DNA of 64,000 nt, taken from assembly GCA_017462565.1 (NCBI GenBank), contig JAFTQW010000040.1, positions 62,001 through 126,000 on the forward strand, in the 5' to 3' direction. Position 1 is the first letter of the stretch. Each line of letters begins with the position of its first letter. Shown piece by piece: positions 55,658-64,000 of the stretch. Origin of the DNA: Ruminococcus sp. (GTDB taxonomy: Bacteria > Bacillota > Clostridia > Oscillospirales > Ruminococcaceae). Both the position numbers and the translations under genes were made by a program. The notes under the pieces were generated by a model, which was given only the letters and a program-made list of their open reading frames with translations, was not told where the DNA came from and did not search any database.

Positions 55658-56581
55658 CTAAAACAGCGGAGTTGAAAAATATCTCTCTGCCGTATCGGGA
55701 AGAATAGTTACAACAGTTTTTCCCTCTCCGAGCTTTTCTGCCAGTTTCAAAGCCGCTGCAACATTAGTTCCGCTTGAAATTCCGCACATTATACCCTCTT
55801 TTGAAGCAAGATCCTTTGCAGTCTGAATAGCTTCTTCATCCGACACAATATAAATGTTATTATAAATTTCCGTGTTAAGTATATCCGGAATAATTCCGTC
55901 CCCTATTCCCATCTGAAGATGAGTTCCGATAGTACCTCCGGCAAGAATAGCAGCATTTTCCGGTTCAACTGCCCATATCTCTATATCAGGATACTGCGCA
56001 CGAAGAGCTTCTCCGATTCCTGTTATCGTTCCGCCTGTTCCTATTCCGGAACAGAAACCGTCTATTTTTCCGGCAGTTTGTTCAAGGATCTCAAGCGCAG
56101 TATGGTATTTATGAGCGCCCGTATTATTGGGGTTTGCAAACTGCTGCGGAACAAACACATTCTCGTCTTCTTCCGCCATTTTCAGAGCGGTTGAAAGACA
56201 TTCTTCAATACACTTTCCGATATCGCCGTCATCATGAACGAGCTTAACTTCAGCTCCGTAATGAGTAACAAGCTTTCTTCTTTCCTCGCTCACGGAATCG
56301 GGCATAATAATTATCGTTTTATAGCCCTTTACAGCTCCCACAAGCGCAAGACCTATCCCTTGATTTCCGCTTGTAGGCTCAACAATTATCGTATTCTCAC
56401 CGATAAGTCCTTCTTTTTCGGCATGACATATCATGTTGTAGGCTGTTCTGGTTTTTATCGAACCGCCGACGTTTAATCCTTCAAATTTTACAAGAACCTC
56501 CGCACTTCCATTTTTTATCATCTTATTAAGCCGTATCATCGGAGTATGTCCTATTGCTTCAAGGATATTGTTATAAATCAT
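55658..56581 (-). CDS. cysK: Cysteine synthase A (O-acetylserine sulfhydrylase)
   Basis: A 307-residue PLP enzyme making cysteine from O-acetylserine and sulfide. The PLP lysine is in NVGGSIKTRTAYNM, the substrate loop is EPTSGNQGIGLALVG (family consensus GNTGIGLA, here Gln), and the phosphate loop is GIGTGGTITGIGE. Length is typical. The two motif departures (KTR for KDR, NQG for NTG) occur in a clostridial subgroup and may shift substrate preference. No cysE is adjacent. Confidence 0.9.
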   Translation of the reverse strand: MIYNNILEAIGHTPMIRLNKMIKNGSAEVLVKFEGLNVGGSIKTRTAYNMICHAEKEGLIGENTIIVEPTSGNQGIGLALVGAVKGYKTIIIMPDSVSEERRKLVTHYGAEVKLVHDDGDIGKCIEECLSTALKMAEEDENVFVPQQFANPNNTGAHKYHTALEILEQTAGKIDGFCSGIGTGGTITGIGEALRAQYPDIEIWAVEPENAAILAGGTIGTHLQMGIGDGIIPDILNTEIYNNIYIVSDEEAIQTAKDLASKEGIMCGISSGTNVAAALKLAEKLGEGKTVVTILPDTAERYFSTPLF

Positions 56582-56648: not shown

Positions 56649-56681
56649 GGTTTATTTTTAAGTAATTTCGTTCTTATTCCC

Positions 56682-56719
56682 CCTTTTCGGCATATAATTG
56701 AAAGAACCTCCGAAAAAGG
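56682..56719 (+). promoter_or_regulatory. Dyad around the -10 of the truncated spoIIID copy
   Basis: CCTTTTCGG (56682-56690) and CCGAAAAAGG (56710-56719) flank CATATAATT. The arrangement is the same as at the right-hand copy (63821-63859), with one compensatory base-pair change (CGG/CCG here, CAG/CTG there). SD GGTGGAG follows. Confidence 0.6.
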
Positions 56720-56731
56720 TGGAGAACTATT

Positions 56732-56875
56732 TTGAAGACTCAGCCAAACCAAAGGGCGGTTATTCTCGGACAGTGCATCGTTGAACACAAGGCAACTGTT
56801 CGTGCCGCAGCAAAAATTTTCGGAATTTCTAAAAGTAAAGTACACACGGTTGTATCAAAAGAGAACGGGATCTGA
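56732..56875 (+). pseudogene. spoIIID: Truncated spoIIID copy
   Basis: From a TTG start, 47 codons read as the N-terminal helix-turn-helix of SpoIIID (LGQCIVEHKATVRAAAKIFG, ISKSKVH) and then depart from the family (TVVSKENGI) and stop. The right-hand copy at 63872 continues STVHKDVSE, the expected form. Over the first 35 codons the two differ at 8 bases, 6 of them synonymous. The promoter region is duplicated too. A terminator overlaps the end, so a short HTH peptide could still be made. Confidence 0.8.
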
Positions 56876-56898
56876 GGTCGCTTCAGATTCCGTTTTTT
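56865..56898 (+). terminator. Terminator overlapping the end of the truncated spoIIID copy
   Basis: ACGGGATCTGA (56865-56875) pairs with TCAGATTCCGT (56883-56893) with one G-T pair, followed by six T residues. The stop codon lies in the left arm. Confidence 0.8.
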
Positions 56899-56913
56899 CA
56901 TGATTGGAAATGC

Positions 56914-56942
56914 TTGATTTTTTATAAAATATATGTTATTAT
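56914..56942 (+). promoter_or_regulatory. Promoter of the first GNAT gene
   Basis: TTGATT (56914-56919), a 17-base spacer and TATTAT (56937-56942), 28 bases before the ATG. Confidence 0.7.
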
Positions 56943-56970
56943 GAGTTTGAAAAATGGGAGTTGATACAAT

Positions 56971-57468
56971 ATGACAATAAGAATTATGACACGATATGAC
57001 AATAAATTTGCAATCAGCCGTGTATACGAGGAAAGCTGGAAATATGCTTATAAAAATATTATTCCGCAAAGTTTTCTTGATAGTATCTCTACAGGAAAAT
57101 GGGCTTCAAATCTGGACAAAAACGGCAGAAAAACGCTGATAATGCTTGAAAATAATGAAATTATCGGAACTTCAAGTTTCTGCAAATCCCGTTTCTCCGA
57201 ATTTCAGGGAATGGGAGAAATTATTTCTATTTATCTTTTGCCGCAGTACATCGGAAAAGGATATGGAACTAATCTGCTTCATGCCGCAATCGCCGAATTA
57301 AAGAAATTAGGATATAACGAAATATTTCTATGGGTATTGGAGGAGAACTACCCTGCAATAAAATTTTACGAAAAAAACGGCTTTGTAAAAACCGATAAAT
57401 TCATTGATGATACTATCGGCGGAAAACCGCTTCGTGAAATTCAATACTTCTATAAAATCAAGGTGTAA
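56971..57468 (+). CDS. GNAT family N-acetyltransferase
   Basis: A 165-residue GNAT enzyme. The acetyl-CoA loop is LPQYIGKGYGTNLLHAAI (R/Q-x-x-G-x-G/A form), preceded by the strand EIISIYL. Motif B ends with LEENYPAIKFYEKNGF. It resembles YkwB/RimI-like clostridial acetyltransferases; the acceptor is unknown. It begins the plus-strand island and is followed after 3 bases by a WYL regulator, so the two are likely co-transcribed. Confidence 0.88.
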   Translation: MTIRIMTRYDNKFAISRVYEESWKYAYKNIIPQSFLDSISTGKWASNLDKNGRKTLIMLENNEIIGTSSFCKSRFSEFQGMGEIISIYLLPQYIGKGYGTNLLHAAIAELKKLGYNEIFLWVLEENYPAIKFYEKNGFVKTDKFIDDTIGGKPLREIQYFYKIKV

Positions 57469-57471
57469 TAT

Positions 57472-58374
57472 ATGAAAATTGACCGTGTTATCGGAATCCT
57501 TTCCATTCTTCTTCAAAGGGAAAAAGTGACGGCATCAGAGCTTGCCGAAAAATTTGAAGTTTCACGCCGCACCGTTATCCGTGATATCGAGGAAATCAAC
57601 AAAGCCGGGATTCCCATTGTCACATTTCAGGGGCAAGGAGGCGGAATCTCCGTTATGGATGGATTTAGACTGGATCGTACGCTCCTTTCCAATGACGACA
57701 TGAAAGCGATTCTTGCAGGCTTGAAAAGTCTCGACAGCGTAAGCGATACCAAGCGTTACCGTCAGCTTATGAGCAAGCTTTCGGCAGAAAATCCCGATAC
57801 GATAAATATGGGGAATCAAATCATCATCGACCTTTCTTCATGGGACAAAGCTGCTGTTTCGGATAAGATAGAGCTGATTAAAAACGCAATAGACGGTCGC
57901 CTGAAAATCAGATTCACCTATTTTTCTCCCACGGGTGAAACTATCCGGGAGATCGAGCCGTACCATTTAATTTTTCAATGGTCAAGCTGGTATGTGTGGG
58001 GATACTGCGTTCTGCGAAACGATTACCGGATGTTCAAACTCACTCGTCTTACCGATCTTGAATGTACGGATAAACCGTGCGAAATGCGTGAAGTTCCCGA
58101 ATATACCTGCGACAAGCTTCGTCATACCAAAGGAGAAATTGAAGCGACAGTCAAATTTGACAAATCCCTGAAATGGCGCATTATAGACGAATTTGGCACA
58201 GAACTTCCTCGATTTGACGAAAACGGAGATATTCTGCTTACTTTTACATGGTCTGATATTCCGTCGTTTTACAGTTATATTCTGTCGTTCGGAGATAAGG
58301 CGGAAATACTTTCGCCGAAAGAGTATTGCAATGAATTTCGTGAGCTGGTAAAAAGAATTTCGGAAAAATATTAA
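57472..58374 (+). CDS. HTH-WYL family transcriptional regulator (YafY-like)
   Basis: A 300-residue regulator: an N-terminal HTH_11 winged helix (about 1-60, RVIGILSILLQREKVTASEL ... SRRTVIRDIEEI), a WYL domain (about 130-205, with SSWYVWGYCVLRNDYRMFKL) and a C-terminal WCX extension. WYL domains sense nucleic acids or small ligands; many such proteins regulate neighbouring genes. Candidates here are the flanking acetyltransferases and the downstream GyrI/DUF3795 operon. Confidence 0.92.
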   Translation: MKIDRVIGILSILLQREKVTASELAEKFEVSRRTVIRDIEEINKAGIPIVTFQGQGGGISVMDGFRLDRTLLSNDDMKAILAGLKSLDSVSDTKRYRQLMSKLSAENPDTINMGNQIIIDLSSWDKAAVSDKIELIKNAIDGRLKIRFTYFSPTGETIREIEPYHLIFQWSSWYVWGYCVLRNDYRMFKLTRLTDLECTDKPCEMREVPEYTCDKLRHTKGEIEATVKFDKSLKWRIIDEFGTELPRFDENGDILLTFTWSDIPSFYSYILSFGDKAEILSPKEYCNEFRELVKRISEKY

Positions 58375-58386
58375 AGGATGATTAAT

Positions 58387-58866
58387 TTGGAATACCGTGT
58401 GATTAATAAAGATCGGATAAATGATATTGTTGATATGAGACTTAAATATTTACGGGAAGATTTTCAATCAACATCAGAAGAAAGCTTTAATTCAGTCAAA
58501 GATAATCTTCCAAAATACTTTGAAAATCATCTTAACAGAGATTTATTTGTATTTGGAGCATTTTACGGTGATAAGATAGTTTCAACAGCATTTTTGCTTA
58601 TAATTGAAAAACCTTGTAATCCACGTTTTACAACAGGAAGAATCGGAGAAATATTTAGCGTATATACTTTGGAAGAGTATCGCAGACAAGGCATTGCATA
58701 TAATCTTTTGAAAATGCTTATGGAATTTGCTAAAAACCACAGACTGGATCTTATTGAACTTAAAGCAACAAAGGAAGGATACCCGCTTTATCAAAAGCTT
58801 GGATTTTCTGAAAATGCTGCTAATTATGTTTCAATGAAATTTATTTTTAATACCAATGAAACATGA
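58387..58866 (+). CDS. GNAT family N-acetyltransferase
   Basis: About 159 residues. GNAT motif A is EIFSVYTLEEYRRQGIAYNL (R-R-Q-G-I-A), with motif B ELKATKEGYPLYQKLGF. Codon use is more AT-rich than in its neighbours. The ATG at 58378 has AAAGG abutting it, too close for a ribosome site; the TTG at 58387 has AAAGGA 8 bases upstream, so I prefer it. It follows the WYL gene closely. Its stop codon overlaps the dyad that precedes the GyrI operon. Confidence 0.82.
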   Translation: MEYRVINKDRINDIVDMRLKYLREDFQSTSEESFNSVKDNLPKYFENHLNRDLFVFGAFYGDKIVSTAFLLIIEKPCNPRFTTGRIGEIFSVYTLEEYRRQGIAYNLLKMLMEFAKNHRLDLIELKATKEGYPLYQKLGFSENAANYVSMKFIFNTNET

Positions 58867-58897
58867 CATACAGTTGTCACATTTGGTATGGTATACT
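58864..58897 (+). promoter_or_regulatory. Extended -10 promoter and TGACA-N6-TGTCA dyad before the GyrI operon
   Basis: The inverted repeat TGACA (58864-58868) - 6 bases - TGTCA (58875-58879) lies where a -35 would be. Downstream is TGG-TATACT (58889-58897), an extended -10. This is the layout of a regulator-controlled promoter. The start codon is about 30 bases on, with GAGG 8 bases before it. Confidence 0.55.
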
Positions 58898-58928
58898 CAG
58901 ATCATCAAATTTGAAATGAGGTACTACC

Positions 58929-59381
58929 ATGAATTATGAAATTGTAAATTTAGAGGAAAAGACCGTCGCAGGATTTTCTGCAAGAACAAATAACGCTTCT
59001 CCCGACATGGGAAAGATAATCGGCGGACTCTGGCAGAAACTCTACTCCCCCGAAGGCTGCTTTACGCTGAAAAACAGAATCAATGATAAGGCTCTTGGAA
59101 TTTACACAGACTATGCCGATGACGAAAAAGCCGATTATACGGTCATTACAGCCTGTGAAGTAAGCAGTGGAGATATTCCCGAGAATTTTGAACTGCGAAA
59201 AATCCCTGCCGGAAAATATGCGAAATTTGTTGTAAAGGGTCATATGGTTACTGCCGTTCAGCAGTTCTGGACAGAGCTTTGGAAGATGAATCTTGAACGC
59301 TCCTTTGTCTGCGATTTTGAGGAGTATCAGAACGCTGATGCTGAAAATGCGGAGATACATATTTATATCGGATTAAAGTGA
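58929..59381 (+). CDS. GyrI-like (AraC effector-binding) domain protein, single-domain
   Basis: A 150-residue stand-alone effector-binding domain. The N-terminal half contains IVNLEEKTVAGFSARTNNAS and KALGIYTDY; the second half has ELRKIPAGKYAKFVVKGHM and FWTELWKMNLER. This two-fold alpha-beta repeat is the GyrI/SbmC/AraC_E_bind fold. Some members bind drugs, inhibit gyrase or hydrolyse cyclopropanoid genotoxins; the activity here is unknown. It is the first gene of a four-gene coupled operon, 7 bases before the DUF3795 fusion gene. Confidence 0.85.
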   Translation: MNYEIVNLEEKTVAGFSARTNNASPDMGKIIGGLWQKLYSPEGCFTLKNRINDKALGIYTDYADDEKADYTVITACEVSSGDIPENFELRKIPAGKYAKFVVKGHMVTAVQQFWTELWKMNLERSFVCDFEEYQNADAENAEIHIYIGLK

Positions 59382-59388
59382 GTGGAAC

Positions 59389-60117
59389 ATGATTGATTTT
59401 AGTAATGTTGTCCCTTGCGGCGGAAATTGTACAGAGTGTAAATATTTTCAAAGAAACGAATGCAGCGGCTGTAATCAAAGTGATGGAAAATGCGTGAAAT
59501 TATGGGAAGGCAGTTGTAAAATACGCGATTGCTGTCGTAAGCATGACGTAAAGTTTTGTGGTCTTTGCAAAGAGTTTCCGTGTGAATGGCTGAAAAAAAC
59601 TCTGACGTGGGATAAGAACGGGATAAAACGTTTACACAATCTTAAAAATGAATATCAGAGCCGAAATGCTGATTTTTCTTTACATTTGCCTGATTTATGG
59701 AAGAAAATAGGTACACACGGCATAATGACTTTATCCACCTGTTCAGCAGATCGTGTGACGTCACGTCCCATGAGTATGATTGTGATAGACGGCAGATTTT
59801 ATTGTCAAACAGATAAAACGTATTTGAAATACAGACAAATTTCAGAGAATCCAAATGTGGCAGTCTGTCATAAAAATTTCTCAATAGAGGGAACTTGTCA
59901 ATGTATCGGAAAGCCACTTGAAAGTAAAAATGATTTTTTTATTCATGCATTCAAGAAGTATTTCTACGGCTCATACAAAGCTTATTCTGATTTGAATAAC
60001 GAACTCTTGCTGGAGATTGTTCCAACTCTAATTTATTCGTGGAATTATCAATTGACAAAACCTTATATGGAATATTTTGACTTTGTAAATTTCATCTATC
60101 GCAGAGAGGAAAAATAA
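59389..60117 (+). CDS. DUF3795 - pyridoxamine-phosphate-oxidase-like fusion protein
   Basis: A 242-residue fusion. Residues 1-75 form a Cys-rich DUF3795 module with about 13 cysteines (CGGNCTECKYF, CSGCNQSDGKC, CGLCKEFPCEW). Residues about 95-235 resemble the split-barrel pyridoxamine 5'-phosphate oxidase/flavin-binding family (IMTLSTCSADRVTSRPMSMI, FYCQTDKTYLKYRQI). A metal-site plus flavin-site protein is plausible. Its stop overlaps the next start (TAATG). Confidence 0.82.
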   Translation: MIDFSNVVPCGGNCTECKYFQRNECSGCNQSDGKCVKLWEGSCKIRDCCRKHDVKFCGLCKEFPCEWLKKTLTWDKNGIKRLHNLKNEYQSRNADFSLHLPDLWKKIGTHGIMTLSTCSADRVTSRPMSMIVIDGRFYCQTDKTYLKYRQISENPNVAVCHKNFSIEGTCQCIGKPLESKNDFFIHAFKKYFYGSYKAYSDLNNELLLEIVPTLIYSWNYQLTKPYMEYFDFVNFIYRREEK

Positions 60118-60764
60118 TGGAAAAATTTGATTATAAAAAGGAATATAAAGATTTATACCAGCCCAAAACAAAGCCGTCGATCATTGAAATTCCTGAGATG
60201 ATCTTCATTGCAATTGACGGAAAGGGCGATCCCAATACCAGCAATGAATATAAGGAGGCTCTTGAAATTCTGTATGGGCTGTCTTTCACTATTAAAATGT
60301 CAAAAATGAGCGGCACTCAGCCGGAGGAATATTTTGAGTACGTTGTTCCGCCGTTGGAGGGACTCTGGTATGTGGATGATGCAAAATTTGACGGCACAAA
60401 TATCACAGATAAGAACCGGTTTTGTTGGACATCCATGATACGTCAGCCGGAATTTGTAACAGAAAAGGTCTTTGAAAATGCAAGAAATGCTCTTGCAAAG
60501 AAAAAGCGTGAGCTTGATCTGTCAAAAGCAAGGCTGATAACAATGACTGAAGGACTTTGCGTTCAGATCATGCACAAGGGAACATATGACAACGAGCCGG
60601 AGAGTATTGCAAAAATACGTGAATTTGCCGAAAAAAGCGGATATACCGAGGATATTTCGGATACTCGTTTTCACCATGAGATATATCTTTCCGATCCTCG
60701 GAGATGTGCTGCTGAAAACTTGAAAACTGTTATAAGACATCCGATCAGGAGGAATAATAAATGA
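60117..60764 (+). CDS. GyrI-like domain protein, 215 residues
   Basis: A GyrI-like small-molecule-binding protein of the longer clostridial type: SIIEIPEMIFIAIDGKGDPN, then YKEALEILYGLSFTIKMSKM, YVVPPLEGLWYVDD, and FVTEKVFENARNALAKKK with RLITMTEGLCVQIMHKGTYD in the second half. It shares only the fold with the protein two genes upstream. The start overlaps the preceding stop and its own stop overlaps the next start (ATGA), so stoichiometric production with the DUF3795 proteins is likely. Confidence 0.9.
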   Translation: MEKFDYKKEYKDLYQPKTKPSIIEIPEMIFIAIDGKGDPNTSNEYKEALEILYGLSFTIKMSKMSGTQPEEYFEYVVPPLEGLWYVDDAKFDGTNITDKNRFCWTSMIRQPEFVTEKVFENARNALAKKKRELDLSKARLITMTEGLCVQIMHKGTYDNEPESIAKIREFAEKSGYTEDISDTRFHHEIYLSDPRRCAAENLKTVIRHPIRRNNK

Positions 60765-61132
60765 AAAGAGAGCTTGGAATTGCAAGATGCGGACTTGCCT
60801 GTTGTCTGTGCGGTCAGAACGAGACCTGCAACGGCTGTCAGAGCAATGAATGTCCCGATAAGGATTGGTGCATGAACAGAAAATGCAGCATGGAAAAAGG
60901 ACTTGAATATTGCTTTGAATGTTCGGAGAATTGCGGAAAATTTATGCTTGAAAAAATCAAGCCGAAAGCGTTCAGCGAATTTGCCCGCCGATACGGGATA
61001 GAACGTCTGCTTGATTGCCTTGAAAGAAATGAGCGGTCAGGTATTGTATACCATCGTGACGGCATCAAAGGCGATTATGATGACTTTGATGATGTGGAAA
61101 AGCTGATTAAATTTATTGAAAACGCTGAATGA
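60761..61132 (+). CDS. DUF3795 cysteine-rich protein
   Basis: A 123-residue protein. About residues 8-55 hold 13 cysteines in short spacings (CGLACCLCGQNETCNGCQSN, CPDKDWCMNRKC, CFECSENCG). The rest is helical (FARRYGIERLLDCLERNE). DUF3795 proteins are small and uncharacterised; a zinc or Fe-S role is inferred from the cysteine spacing. It ends the four-gene operon and is followed by a terminator. Confidence 0.87.
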   Translation: MKRELGIARCGLACCLCGQNETCNGCQSNECPDKDWCMNRKCSMEKGLEYCFECSENCGKFMLEKIKPKAFSEFARRYGIERLLDCLERNERSGIVYHRDGIKGDYDDFDDVEKLIKFIENAE

Positions 61133-61149
61133 TGCAAAAATTTGAGATG

Positions 61150-61184
61150 CTGAACAGGCTTAAAAAGACTGTTCAGTATTTTTT
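61150..61184 (+). terminator. Terminator of the GyrI/DUF3795 operon
   Basis: CTGAACAG (61150-61157) pairs with CTGTTCAG (61169-61176) around an 11-base loop, followed by TATTTTTT. Confidence 0.85.
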
Positions 61185-61502
61185 ATTATCTGACCGTTCT
61201 TATATCAAATTTAAGTGCATGGCAATAGCATTTACTTTTTTAAGTTAGTTATAAAGGGGAGTACCCGCCTAACAAGCCCCCGTCCCCTCTGTCAGCAAGC
61301 CGACATCTCCCCACACTGTGGAGAGTCACCCTTTGGAAACCCAGTATTAATAAATTCTAATCTCAATAAGGGATTAGAATTTATTAGGACAGAATGCTCA
61401 GACGGAAATAACTCCGTTCAACAAGAGATCACAGAAACAAAGTCTGCTTAATAAACATAATAAAAGTAAATACTGTCACCCCGGGTTTAAGAAATAATTC
61501 TC
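61185..61502. repeat. Non-coding interval with repeat remnants and a 15-bp perfect hairpin
   Basis: No gene is visible. At 61270-61330 there is a degenerate CCCC-TCTGTCAGCAAGCCGACA and CTCCCCACACTGTGGAGAG tract, which looks like an old palindromic intergenic repeat. At 61348-61362 and 61372-61386 lies a perfect 15-bp inverted repeat (TAATAAATTCTAATC) with a 9-base loop. The flank to 61490 has no clear feature. Confidence 0.55.
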
Positions 61503-61531
61503 TTGATTTTGCATGATGTTTATGTTATACT
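61503..61531 (+). promoter_or_regulatory. Promoter of cca
   Basis: TTGATT (61503-61508), a 17-base spacer and TATACT (61526-61531). It gives a leader of about 108 bases. Confidence 0.75.
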
Positions 61532-61646
61532 ATAAACACTAAAACCTGATCGGTATTTTTTGCCAAACAAGAAAAAAAGCAGCAACACACAGTTGCAAAG
61601 CCTGAAAAAATGCAGCAGATAACAGACATGAAAGGCCGGTGAAATC

Positions 61647-63047
61647 ATGACAGATACAGAAATTGCCAAGCTTATCGCACAAAAGACAGCAGAACTGGGC
61701 GGAGCAGTCTACTTTGTAGGCGGCTTTGTCCGTGACAGGATTTTAATGCGTGAAAATAAGGATATTGACATTGAGATTCACGGTATCACGCCAACGCAGT
61801 TGGAAGATATTCTGGATTCTGTCGGCGAATGTATCCAGATTGGCAAGAGTTTCGGAATTTACGGTTTAAAGGGATATTCCATAGATATCGCACTTCCTCG
61901 TACGGAGCGTCTGATCGGTACCGGTCACAAAGATTTTGAGATAACTGCCGATCCTTTTATGGGGACTTATGAGGCGGCAAGACGGAGAGATTTCACGATC
62001 AACGCCCTGATGGAGAACGTCCTCACAGGCGAGATCATCGACCATTTCGGCGGACAGGCAGATTTGCAGCAAGGGGTACTCCGTCACATTGACGATGCGA
62101 CATTTGCAGAAGACCCTTTGCGAGTTCTACGAACCGCACAGTTTGCCGCAAGATTTGATTTCACGATTACAGCCGAAACTGTTGCATTGTGCCGTGATAT
62201 CGACCTATCTACGCTTTCGGGCGAACGCATTATGCTGGAAATGGAAAAGGCTCTGCTGAAATCGGACAGACCGTCTGTATTCTTCGAGCAAATGAAGCGT
62301 ATGAACCAGTTGGATTTCTGGTTTCCGGAGTTAAAAGCACTCATAGGACTTCCTCAAAATCAGGAGCATCACCGGGAGGGCGATACATGGACGCATACCA
62401 TGATGGTACTGGACGAGGCGGCGAAACGAATGGGTATCGTGAAATATTCGCTGGGATTTATGCTGTCCGCACTCTGCCATGATTTCGGCAAGGCAGTATG
62501 CACAACAGAAATAAATGGCGTAATTCACTCCTACAGTCACGAAACCGAAGGGCTGCCGCTGGCAGAGCAGTTCCTTGCACGCATCACAACGGAAACGAAG
62601 CTGATCAAGTACGTTCTGAACATGACAGAACTGCACATGACTCCCAATATTATGGCAGGAGCAAGATCAAAGTTGAAATCCACCAACAGGCTGTTTGATT
62701 CCGCAGTCGAGCCGTTTGACCTGATACAGCTCAGTATCTGCGACAGTCTCGGCAAGATTCCGCAGCGTAACGATTCGGAAGAATTTCTGATGCAGAGATA
62801 CCGGAAGTTTCAGGAGATCATGGCAAGACCCTATGTCATGGGCAGAGACCTGATCGAAGCGGGCTTAAAGCCCTGCGAGCAGTTTTCGGAGATTCTTGCA
62901 TATGCACATAAACTGCGGCTTGCAGGATGTGACAAGGACAATACGCTCCGTCAGTGCATTGCTTATGCGAAGAAAGTATTAAAGATGAAATCGGACAAAG
63001 AAAAAGGCGGTCTTTGTTTTGGTACAGAAGCCGATAAAAAGATTTAG
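61647..63047 (+). CDS. cca: CCA tRNA nucleotidyltransferase
   Basis: A 466-residue class II nucleotidyltransferase that adds or repairs the 3' CCA of tRNA. The head domain has FVGGFVRDRI and DIDIEIHG (catalytic Asp pair), with RRRDFTINALM and AEDPLRVLRTAQFAARF of the neck. A C-terminal HD phosphohydrolase region (HHREGDTWTHTMMVLDEA ... LCHDFGKA) is present. The start ATG has GGCCGGTG upstream. It lies between the GyrI/DUF3795 operon and crcB, inside the spoIIID-bounded segment. Confidence 0.93.
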   Translation: MTDTEIAKLIAQKTAELGGAVYFVGGFVRDRILMRENKDIDIEIHGITPTQLEDILDSVGECIQIGKSFGIYGLKGYSIDIALPRTERLIGTGHKDFEITADPFMGTYEAARRRDFTINALMENVLTGEIIDHFGGQADLQQGVLRHIDDATFAEDPLRVLRTAQFAARFDFTITAETVALCRDIDLSTLSGERIMLEMEKALLKSDRPSVFFEQMKRMNQLDFWFPELKALIGLPQNQEHHREGDTWTHTMMVLDEAAKRMGIVKYSLGFMLSALCHDFGKAVCTTEINGVIHSYSHETEGLPLAEQFLARITTETKLIKYVLNMTELHMTPNIMAGARSKLKSTNRLFDSAVEPFDLIQLSICDSLGKIPQRNDSEEFLMQRYRKFQEIMARPYVMGRDLIEAGLKPCEQFSEILAYAHKLRLAGCDKDNTLRQCIAYAKKVLKMKSDKEKGGLCFGTEADKKI

Positions 63048-63078
63048 GTGCTGTATAGTACAATATAGGCTATAACAA

Positions 63079-63114
63079 TTAAGGCAACACAATCTTTGTG
63101 CAGTGTTGCCTTAA
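63079..63114. repeat. 12-bp perfect inverted repeat between cca and crcB
   Basis: TTAAGGCAACAC (63079-63090) and GTGTTGCCTTAA (63103-63114), with an inner CACAA/TTGTG pairing option. No T run follows on the plus strand, so it is a poor terminator. It looks like a dispersed palindromic intergenic element. Confidence 0.65.
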
Positions 63115-63136
63115 ATCAAAATTACTCGAGGTAAAT

Positions 63137-63502
63137 ATGAAATTTTTATTTGTAGCTCTTGGCGGAGCAATCGGAGCGATGGGAAGGTATACAATCAGCC
63201 TTATCCCAATCAAAACTGAATTTCCCATATTGACATTGACAACCAATATTATCGGTGCTGTCATGATAGGATTTATTGTCGGCATTGCCGCCGGAAAAGA
63301 TAATGTTTCCACGAATACGGTGTTGTTCTGGAAAACGGGTATCTGCGGAGGATTTACAACCTTTTCCACTTTTTCCCTTGAAGCGATCACACTGCTGGAA
63401 AACAAGTCCTTTTTATCAGGCGGAATTTACATTGTATTGAGCATGATCGGTTGTATCATAGGTGTCTGGAGCGGCAGGAAACTGTCTGCGCTTGTCGGAT
63501 GA
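63137..63502 (+). CDS. crcB: CrcB/FluC-type fluoride channel
   Basis: A 121-residue membrane protein with four hydrophobic segments: FVALGGAIGAMGRY at the N-terminus, TLTTNIIGAVMIGFIVG, and the hallmark GICGGFTTFSTFSLE. Fluc channels are dual-topology homodimers that export fluoride. A second crcB copy often lies nearby but is not seen here. GAGG lies 5 bases before the chosen ATG. I found no convincing fluoride riboswitch in the 89 bases upstream. Confidence 0.93.
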   Translation: MKFLFVALGGAIGAMGRYTISLIPIKTEFPILTLTTNIIGAVMIGFIVGIAAGKDNVSTNTVLFWKTGICGGFTTFSTFSLEAITLLENKSFLSGGIYIVLSMIGCIIGVWSGRKLSALVG

Positions 63503-63573
63503 AAGGTATTGATGCGAGCTGTTATTATGAGTGATATTTTGCAATAGCGGCAAGTATAAGAATTGGCGTATAT

Positions 63574-63631
63574 CCACGAATCGTAGGATTTCCTGTTTTG
63601 CATGATTCTACGGCTCGTGGGTTTCTTTTTT
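63574..63631 (+). terminator. Terminator downstream of crcB
   Basis: CCACGA(at)CGTAG... (63574 onward) pairs with ...CTACG(gc)TCGTGG (ending 63620) in a long interrupted stem, followed by G-TTTCTTTTTT. The rest of the 369-base gap to spoIIID shows no convincing gene. Confidence 0.75.
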
Positions 63632-63820
63632 GGGCAGATACATGATATCGTTGTATGAAAGTTGTTCATCATGAATACATATAATTTTATGAATAATCCG
63701 GTTGTCAATAGCATACTCCTCAATGATCTGAAGAAGAATCGACGCAGCAAAGCTGTGCATAGCCGTTTTTTCCCGGAAGAGGTTTTTAGAGGCTGCCTTA
63801 TGTAAATTCGTTCTTTTTCC

Positions 63821-63859
63821 CTTTTTTCAGCATATAATTGAAAGAACCGCTGAAAAAAG
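63821..63859 (+). promoter_or_regulatory. Dyad enclosing the -10 of spoIIID
   Basis: CTTTTTTCAGC (63821-63831) and GCTGAAAAAAG (63849-63859) are perfect 11-bp inverted arms, with CATATAATT at 63831-63839 beginning at the end of the left arm. The right arm abuts the GGAGGG ribosome site. A nested GTTCTTT/AAAGAAC pair (63810-63816, 63841-63847) is also present. The same layout occurs at 56682-56719. Confidence 0.65.
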
Positions 63860-63871
63860 GAGGGAACTATT

Positions 63872-64000
63872 TTGAAGGCTCAGCCAAACCAGAGAGCGGT
63901 TATTCTCGGACAGTACATCGTTGAACATAAAGCAACTGTCCGTGCCGCAGCGAAAATTTTCGGAATTTCTAAAAGTACGGTACATAAAGACGTAAGTGAA
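63872..64000 (+). CDS. spoIIID: Sporulation transcriptional regulator SpoIIID (3' end outside window)
   Basis: From a TTG start, with GGAGGG 7 bases upstream, 43 codons are visible: KAQPNQRAVILGQYIVEHKA, then TVRAAAKIFGISKSTVHKDV. This matches the helix-turn-helix of SpoIIID, the mother-cell regulator of sporulation (Bacillus: GKYIVETKKTVRVIAKEFGV, SKSTVHKDL). The family is about 85-95 residues, so roughly half is missing beyond base 64000. An extra truncated copy lies 7.1 kb upstream. Confidence 0.9.
   Translation, partial: MKAQPNQRAVILGQYIVEHKATVRAAAKIFGISKSTVHKDVSE

Follow-up and report, generated by a model that had tools for sequence, protein, structure and literature searches.

The sporulation genes named as targets of intervening DNA elements, in the available text of three reports, are sigK, spsM, spoVFB, gerE and yabG (PMC5595907, PMC10747680, PMC5025042). 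The elements include: (i) skin of sigK in Clostridioides difficile and Bacillus subtilis, a large serine recombinase (LSR) element in the gene of a mother-cell regulator, excised by the LSR together with a small directionality factor, CD1234 (PMC5025042), (ii) gin of gerE in Bacillus cereus ATCC10987 (PMC5595907), and (iii) yin of yabG, vfbin of spoVFB and SP-beta of spsM, which are mostly prophage-like (PMC10747680). As described in the accessible part of one account, SpoIIID of C. difficile is needed for skin excision, which sigma-E and SpoIIID control via CD1234 (PMC5025042). A search of open-licence literature (subscription papers and preprints lie outside its coverage) returned no report, by title or abstract start, of an element in spoIIID or spoIVA. 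The subject here is a stretch of 64,000 nucleotides (the window) of a Ruminococcus sp. genome, G000, comprising positions 62001-126000 of the 202-kb contig 66 in an assembly of 66 contigs. A segment of about 7 kb in this window (56846..63797) is very probably a decayed spoIIID-intervening element of the skin/gin type, which lost its recombinase and right end, and spoIIID is restored by a full copy.

The spoIIID elements of the relatives resemble gin in that a small mother-cell regulator gene is split, the halves overlap briefly, the cargo is not of phage type and a serine recombinase is internal. By contrast, gin targets gerE, has three serine recombinases and is demonstrated to excise (PMC5595907, as far as its available text goes), while excision is predicted for the spoIIID elements and the window element is without a recombinase. 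Similarly to skin, an LSR element resides in a mother-cell regulator gene, with the difference that SpoIIID, a controller of skin excision, is itself the interrupted protein. Families of diverse LSRs that use a common attB in one gene are also described (PMC10083194); their targets differ, being a magnesium chelatase-like gene and a prolyl isomerase, and sporulation appears in the available part of that report in the reference list only.

The promoter and 5' portion of spoIIID occur twice in the window in the same orientation, as the sequence-only reading had noted, forming a direct repeat of 187 nt (56658-56844 and 63798-63984; 165/187 identical, 88%). Both copies match the Pfam SpoIIID family PF12116 (cut-off 27 bits), the first at 42.4 bits and the second at 59.5 bits as far as the window reaches. 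Eight of the first 35 codons differ between the copies, six by synonymous changes, in agreement with the earlier count; the whole coding part of the repeat (113 bases) has 10 differences, spread over 9 codons, of which 3 have a changed residue (positions 3, 15 and 36). The second copy is a complete spoIIID of 84 codons (63872-64126 in window numbering), of which the promoter and first 43 codons (63798..64000, + strand) lie within the window, and phoR and phoB follow on the opposite strand. The first copy has a promoter and ribosome site (56658..56731, +) and an open frame of 47 codons. Codons 1-38 (56732..56845, +) form a spoIIID 5' half, the host side of attL in alignments of junctions with relatives, and after codons 37-38 the sequence continues into the attachment arm of a recombinase element. 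The last part of the half is the crossover core GTACAC (56840-56845, +), placed by the same junction alignment, and the arm, ACGGTTGTATCAAAAGAGAACGGG, follows at 56846..56869 (+); core and tail included, it is 32/36 identical to that of G018, a relative with a live element. On inspection of the sequence, the frame ends (stop at 56873-56875) in a terminator-like hairpin (56865..56898, +), and a similar hairpin comes after the arm in G018 and at the second locus of another relative, G031. The sequence-only reading had suggested checking whether the full gene shares the tail and terminator of 56845-56898; it does not, as this tail belongs to the element.

In the relatives aligned, the 5' halves continue past the core (codons 37-38; GTACAT in most) into one common arm, with the consensus ACGGTAGTAACAAAATAGAACGG, and an arm of the opposite sense lies ahead of the 3' halves. 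The two halves overlap in the short core GTACAT, and the window relic and its relatives have one fixed insertion site. A right-arm model was built from 30 other elements with the window excluded, several of them near-copies of one another, and its training arms score 9.2 to 34.8. Across about 128,000 window positions on both strands, the best match is 56846 at 25.0 bits and the next is 9.6. With the left-arm model, the best match is this site again, read in reverse (18.3 bits; next 15.0), so that no other window position is distinguished as an attR. By the arm match and the junction comparison, the first spoIIID copy is attL, the left junction of an element with its integration site at codons 37-38 of the gene. 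The sequence-only reading had proposed foreign DNA in a target gene with no integrase; these parts stand, along with the empty site described next, while the site-specific attachment site common to a recombinase family had escaped it.

The SpoIIID of G031 is the closest to the window protein among 60 relatives. In G031, cysK, a single intact spoIIID and phoR/phoB are adjacent and the segment is absent from this place, which is the arrangement that the sequence-only reading had predicted for a strain with an empty site. The two genomes align from cysK, the left host flank (55658..56581, -; 873/921 identical), through codon 37 of the first copy at 94%; the alignment resumes at the promoter of the second copy and extends to the gene end (331 nt, 96%). 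The second copy is the ortholog of the intact G031 gene. Most segment genes are found in G031 320 kb from spoIIID (C11:591881-599925), circularly permuted and flanked on both sides by an interspersed repeat in direct orientation. The corresponding join in the window consists of one copy of the repeat (61253..61476), which lies between DUF3795 and cca and matches both repeats flanking the G031 copy. The G031 locus is without the second GNAT gene and has AraC, helix-turn-helix (HTH) and PNPOx genes that are absent from the window, and the corresponding place in G000 is empty with one repeat copy, a reciprocal empty site. The permutation between repeats and the single repeat at the empty place suggest that the segment DNA moved as a circle; the circle would have entered or left spoIIID at the att site and the other place by crossover in the repeat. 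The repeat copy at 61253..61476 is the probable crossover site for integration at the second locus of G031. The interspersed repeat is about 200 nt long, has copies on many contigs of G000 and is a likely substrate for chromosomal rearrangement.

The segment carries, in order, genes for a GNAT protein, a WYL regulator, a second GNAT, a GyrI-like protein, a PNPOx/DUF3795 protein, a second GyrI-like protein and a DUF3795-like open reading frame (ORF), then the repeat, cca, crcB and the remnant of a recombinase-side gene. This remnant (63671..63805, +; MNTYNFMNNPV...) derives from the small gene that precedes the LSR in G018, with 55 nt at 85% to G018 and 39 nt at 90% to the second locus of G031. 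It is joined directly to the second spoIIID promoter with the LSR and attR lost, and in G031 the small-gene start is instead fused to the attP-side arm. MNTYNF... was considered as the start of an LSR and ruled out, as it is a separate frame of 59 amino acids in G018. The recombinase is gone in both G031 and the window genome: none is among the listed ORFs of the segment, as noted earlier, and none of the 10 LSR places of G000 is on contig 66. The segment is classed as a relic rather than an active member because no site-specific recombinase is encoded. The cca gene (tRNA nucleotidyltransferase; 61647..63047, +) also lies within the live G018 element (C53:15715-17082; 89% over 1368 nt). The element carries this housekeeping tRNA gene in two lineages, and no second DNA-level cca match is among the matches listed for G000 or G018. 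The flanks of the G018 element were considered as an older relic and set aside, since the only match to the second locus of G031 is an HTH gene before the 5' half. Loci L215 and L216 have no more genes of the window or G031, save a weak leucine-rich-repeat match.

Relatives with SpoIIID residues 1-43 at one place and 35-83 at another came to light in searches of three overlapping sets of genomes. The genus survey (125 genomes, 114 with a match) includes nine with both halves and no full gene (G062, G082, G029, G110, G018, G121, G132, G140 and G014), three with the N part only (G127, G139, G141), two with a full gene plus a half (G000, N half; G002, C half) and 100 with a single match. In the order survey (394 genomes, 336 with a match), both halves without a full gene are present in 16 and one half in six (G052, G053, G203, G293, G341, G450); a full gene plus an N part is noted in G000, G440 and G381, two abutting, frameshift-like pieces in G325, a 31-residue piece at a contig edge in G245 and a second N half in G222. 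In these two surveys, the genomes looked at place by place were those whose best match is weak or that have multiple matches. For the class survey, 392 genomes with a completeness of 95% or more were searched and 272 have a match; those inspected place by place were 17 weak-match genomes plus the already known G206 and G053. Both halves are present in 11 (G206 of the order survey included), a lone half in G053, G690, G787, G840 and G776, and a C half with a degenerate N match in G700 and G749. In 18 of the 25 both-halves genomes of the genus and order, the halves are on one contig. Where both halves were read, at 30 loci, they are 3.8 to 24.6 kb apart; in G622 the matches are 65 kb apart.

A half plus a full gene occurs only in G000, G440, G381 and G002, bar unclear fragments such as that of G245; the genus and order surveys did not turn up the pattern named earlier as fatal to insertion, with the two copies in one and the same order across many distant genera. 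G440 has the anatomy of the window on a single contig: the 5' half, then 6.4 kb, then a full gene. The junction of the window recurs in G381, where the small gene survives as a 5' part fused to the region upstream of an intact spoIIID; the N half of that genome is on another contig. G002 is a mirror image, in which a full gene is followed by an LSR and 3' half, the two 3' ends being 94% alike over 211 nt. From these second full genes, escape by a second full gene seems to recur. The supply of a new 5' end to the target, as proposed by the sequence-only reading, finds no support as a general rule: live elements keep the gene split with neither half supplied, and the related phage contigs have no spoIIID piece in the 21.5 kb examined.

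The LSR adjoins a spoIIID half in 23 of the 25 both-halves genomes, the exceptions (G082 and G330) having contigs that end near the half. It is mostly next to the 3' half, but G029, G110 and G622 have it inverted and next to the 5' half. The LSR proteins of G043 and G018 score above cut-off for PF00239, PF07508 and PF13408 (Resolvase, Recombinase and zinc-ribbon). An LSR tree was drawn from 81 frames found with the G043 LSR as query of the collected loci, from which five of less than 370 amino acids were dropped (L084, L097, L099, L076 of G293 and one of L113), leaving 76. In this tree, a quick search with no bootstrap and several long branches among the outside rows, the 25 LSRs beside spoIIID halves (the 23 plus G052 and G002) form one side of a branch with Shimodaira-Hasegawa-like approximate likelihood ratio test (SH-aLRT) support of 100. 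None of the 51 other LSRs, from the same or neighbouring genomes, falls inside this clade, and the second LSR within the G313 element is likewise outside. Of the best 80 of 250 LSR relatives in genome contigs (six of the 80 overlap with surveyed genomes), 77 have a spoIIID 3' half directly behind the LSR; the records include Blautia, Flavonifractor, Pseudoflavonifractor, Agathobaculum, Schaedlerella, Extibacter and Sporofaciens.

The elements of G313 and L170 are 97.8% identical over 9.0 kb end to end, and the host flanks outside spoIIID do not align (3.9 kb downstream and the 0.4 kb available upstream); this near-identity between hosts points to plainly recent movement. L146 and L179 likewise share pieces at 91-98%. 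Two kinds of phage contig of 50-119 kb in IMG/VR (L125-L127, called identical from a comparison of L125 with L126, and L128) encode an LSR of the family (69% and 66%) and the small protein, have a complete attP right behind the LSR, and contain no spoIIID piece within the 21.5 kb examined; they are probable phages that integrate in spoIIID. An intact attP is noted in phage contigs only, a circular form being otherwise suggested by the G000/G031 permutation, and a scan of viral contigs for the attP pattern returned only three identical, already known contigs. A known phage was sought as a source and not accepted. The one close record in the phage collection, MT838016.1 (L124; GenBank 'Bacteriophage sp.', marked unverified), has an LSR and then the spoIIID 3' half with ORFs named by eye as yqfD-like and ylbJ-like; given these sporulation-like ORFs, it is probably a bacterial chromosome fragment. 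The best match of a plasmid search is 33%.

A small protein (KLNYRFHNPN...EAN..KVE.AI) precedes the LSR and is the candidate directionality factor. It is found at 69/80 LSR loci and 14/25 LSR-bearing loci, by a model built from 44 sequences of the same loci in which it was counted, as well as on the phage contigs, and at 0/40 loci of other LSRs. The nine LSR loci of the genus itself are among the 11 without the modelled protein, the G018 version being similar by eye only. No match to the small protein was found in Pfam, NCBIfam or PHROGs. The motif CATAG..ATGG lies before the small-protein gene in 18 of 51 non-redundant upstream regions (shuffles: mean 0.085, at most 2). ATGGACAAAG is near what we take to be the SpoIIID-binding consensus, and binding there is putative. 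SpoIIID repressor sites generally overlap promoters, in the accessible part of a published account (PMC517825).

In the relatives, an element with an LSR of one clade splits spoIIID: the 5' half bears the promoter, and the 3' half shares the short core with it. The LSR would join attP to attB to integrate in spoIIID and, with the directionality factor, would excise the element in the mother cell during sporulation to give a complete spoIIID, as in skin/sigK and gin/gerE; excision in the relatives thus probably rebuilds the gene. In the window lineage, the element would have lost its recombinase and attR, and recombination with an uninterrupted allele (of a sister chromosome after excision, or of another strain) may have placed a complete promoter and spoIIID behind it. 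Sporulation would then be independent of excision and the 5' half free to decay. In the G031 lineage, the same DNA would have departed from spoIIID as a circle and been inserted at another chromosomal place by crossover in the interspersed repeat. The attL arm, the split relatives with LSR, and the empty site and circular permutation of G031 together lead to the assignment of the segment as a decayed spoIIID-intervening element.

Several observations weigh on the other side. The excision reading draws on anatomy and on the known elements, not on excision observed here. Most pairs of joined halves are saturated and some insertions are recent, and intact frames may partly reflect youth. A strict sigma-E promoter pattern is found before 0/73 genes of the candidate directionality factor, and looser patterns are within the shuffle range. 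Three of the 80 LSR relatives (L131, L132 and L177) have no spoIIID 3' half behind them, and on C75 of G293 a 3' half is beside an LSR fragment that is outside the score range of the clade and too short for the tree. Many of the surveyed genomes are fragmented metagenome assemblies. The divergence of the two window copies is, in addition, compatible with import from another strain.

Import is the alternative that survives best, if still somewhat unlikely: the second copy would come from another strain's allele instead of the cell's own excised allele. The first and second copies are a species-level distance apart (103 of 113 coding bases identical, compared to 109 and 107, respectively, versus G031), and the homology of the second copy to G031 starts exactly at the promoter. 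The differences between the copies are, however, the sum of the differences of each from G031, which places G031 between them, and duplication near the G000-G031 split would give the same. The first promoter and ribosome site have also changed faster (64/74 identical to G031, compared to 70/74 for the second), as in a relic, and no donor is identified.

That the split genes are dead, hit by selfish elements in lineages past sporulating and with no programmed excision, is improbable. No excision was seen, and the split genes are patchy (25 both-halves genomes among 450 genus and order genomes with a match) and some insertions recent, a distribution that indicates the elements behave as invaders. 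The joined halves, however, have no stop in 30/30 cases (the G110 join is off by one codon in the alignment), and the ratio of nonsynonymous to synonymous change (dN/dS) is 0 to 0.41, median 0.20, in the nine least saturated pairs (synonymous difference below 0.6). The spoIVA gene is also kept in 40/40 genomes tested, 22 of them with split spoIIID, though it is itself split in six, perhaps also in G511. A simple duplication of the 5' end of spoIIID, tandem or segmental and without a recombinase, is scarcely tenable: it would account for the missing recombinase, yet the tail after codon 38 is an element arm by both the arm test and the junction alignments, and the segment content is circularly permuted elsewhere in G031. 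An assembly artefact or mix of excised and unexcised alleles, which 66 contigs might suggest, is just as implausible given that the copies differ by 12%, that both lie inside contig 66 and that G440 has the same anatomy on one contig.

SpoIIID acts upstream of sigma-K, and an element in spoIIID itself would shift the control by DNA excision one step further up the mother-cell cascade. A genome that seems 'spoIIID-negative' or has 'two spoIIID fragments' may still sporulate, and the window case would illustrate a way for hosts to free themselves of these elements. The family is frequent enough for experiments on cultured gut bacteria and offers a set of recombinases with one common target, together with a candidate directionality factor that has no database match. 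A broader proposal, held tentatively and at less than even confidence for its four parts jointly, is that a developmental DNA switch at spoIIID is widespread among gut Clostridia: (i) one recombinase clade with its own small factor would keep SpoIIID broken in vegetative cells and rebuild it at the sigma-E stage, (ii) new SpoIIID would bind CATAG..ATGGACAAAG before the factor gene and shut excision off, (iii) lineages would escape via a second complete spoIIID, the released circle resettling by homologous recombination, and (iv) with the spoIVA elements, several sporulation layers would be gated by DNA excision.

The spoIVA gene is apparently a second new target of such elements. All six species sampled from the genus g188 have it in two pieces (residues about 2-405 and 399-492), and an LSR of another family is inside the split gene in the three retrieved g188 loci, G669 (C1:2863155-2870734, L212), G622 (L213) and G562 (L221-L223), as well as in G511 (C18, L214), in which the spoIVA match stops at residue 402. 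The sigma-E promoters of spoIVA, compared by eye, have no clear common pattern.

The -10 region of spoIIID lies in the loop of an inverted repeat in both window copies (56675-56735 and 63815-63875) and in the relatives, with the right arm covering the ribosome site. The arm sequence varies by species and the pairing is kept, with an inverted-repeat score of at least 9 in 18 of 42 spoIIID upstream regions compared to 17 of 420 simple shuffles. The ribosome site could, in this way, be hidden in read-through transcripts.

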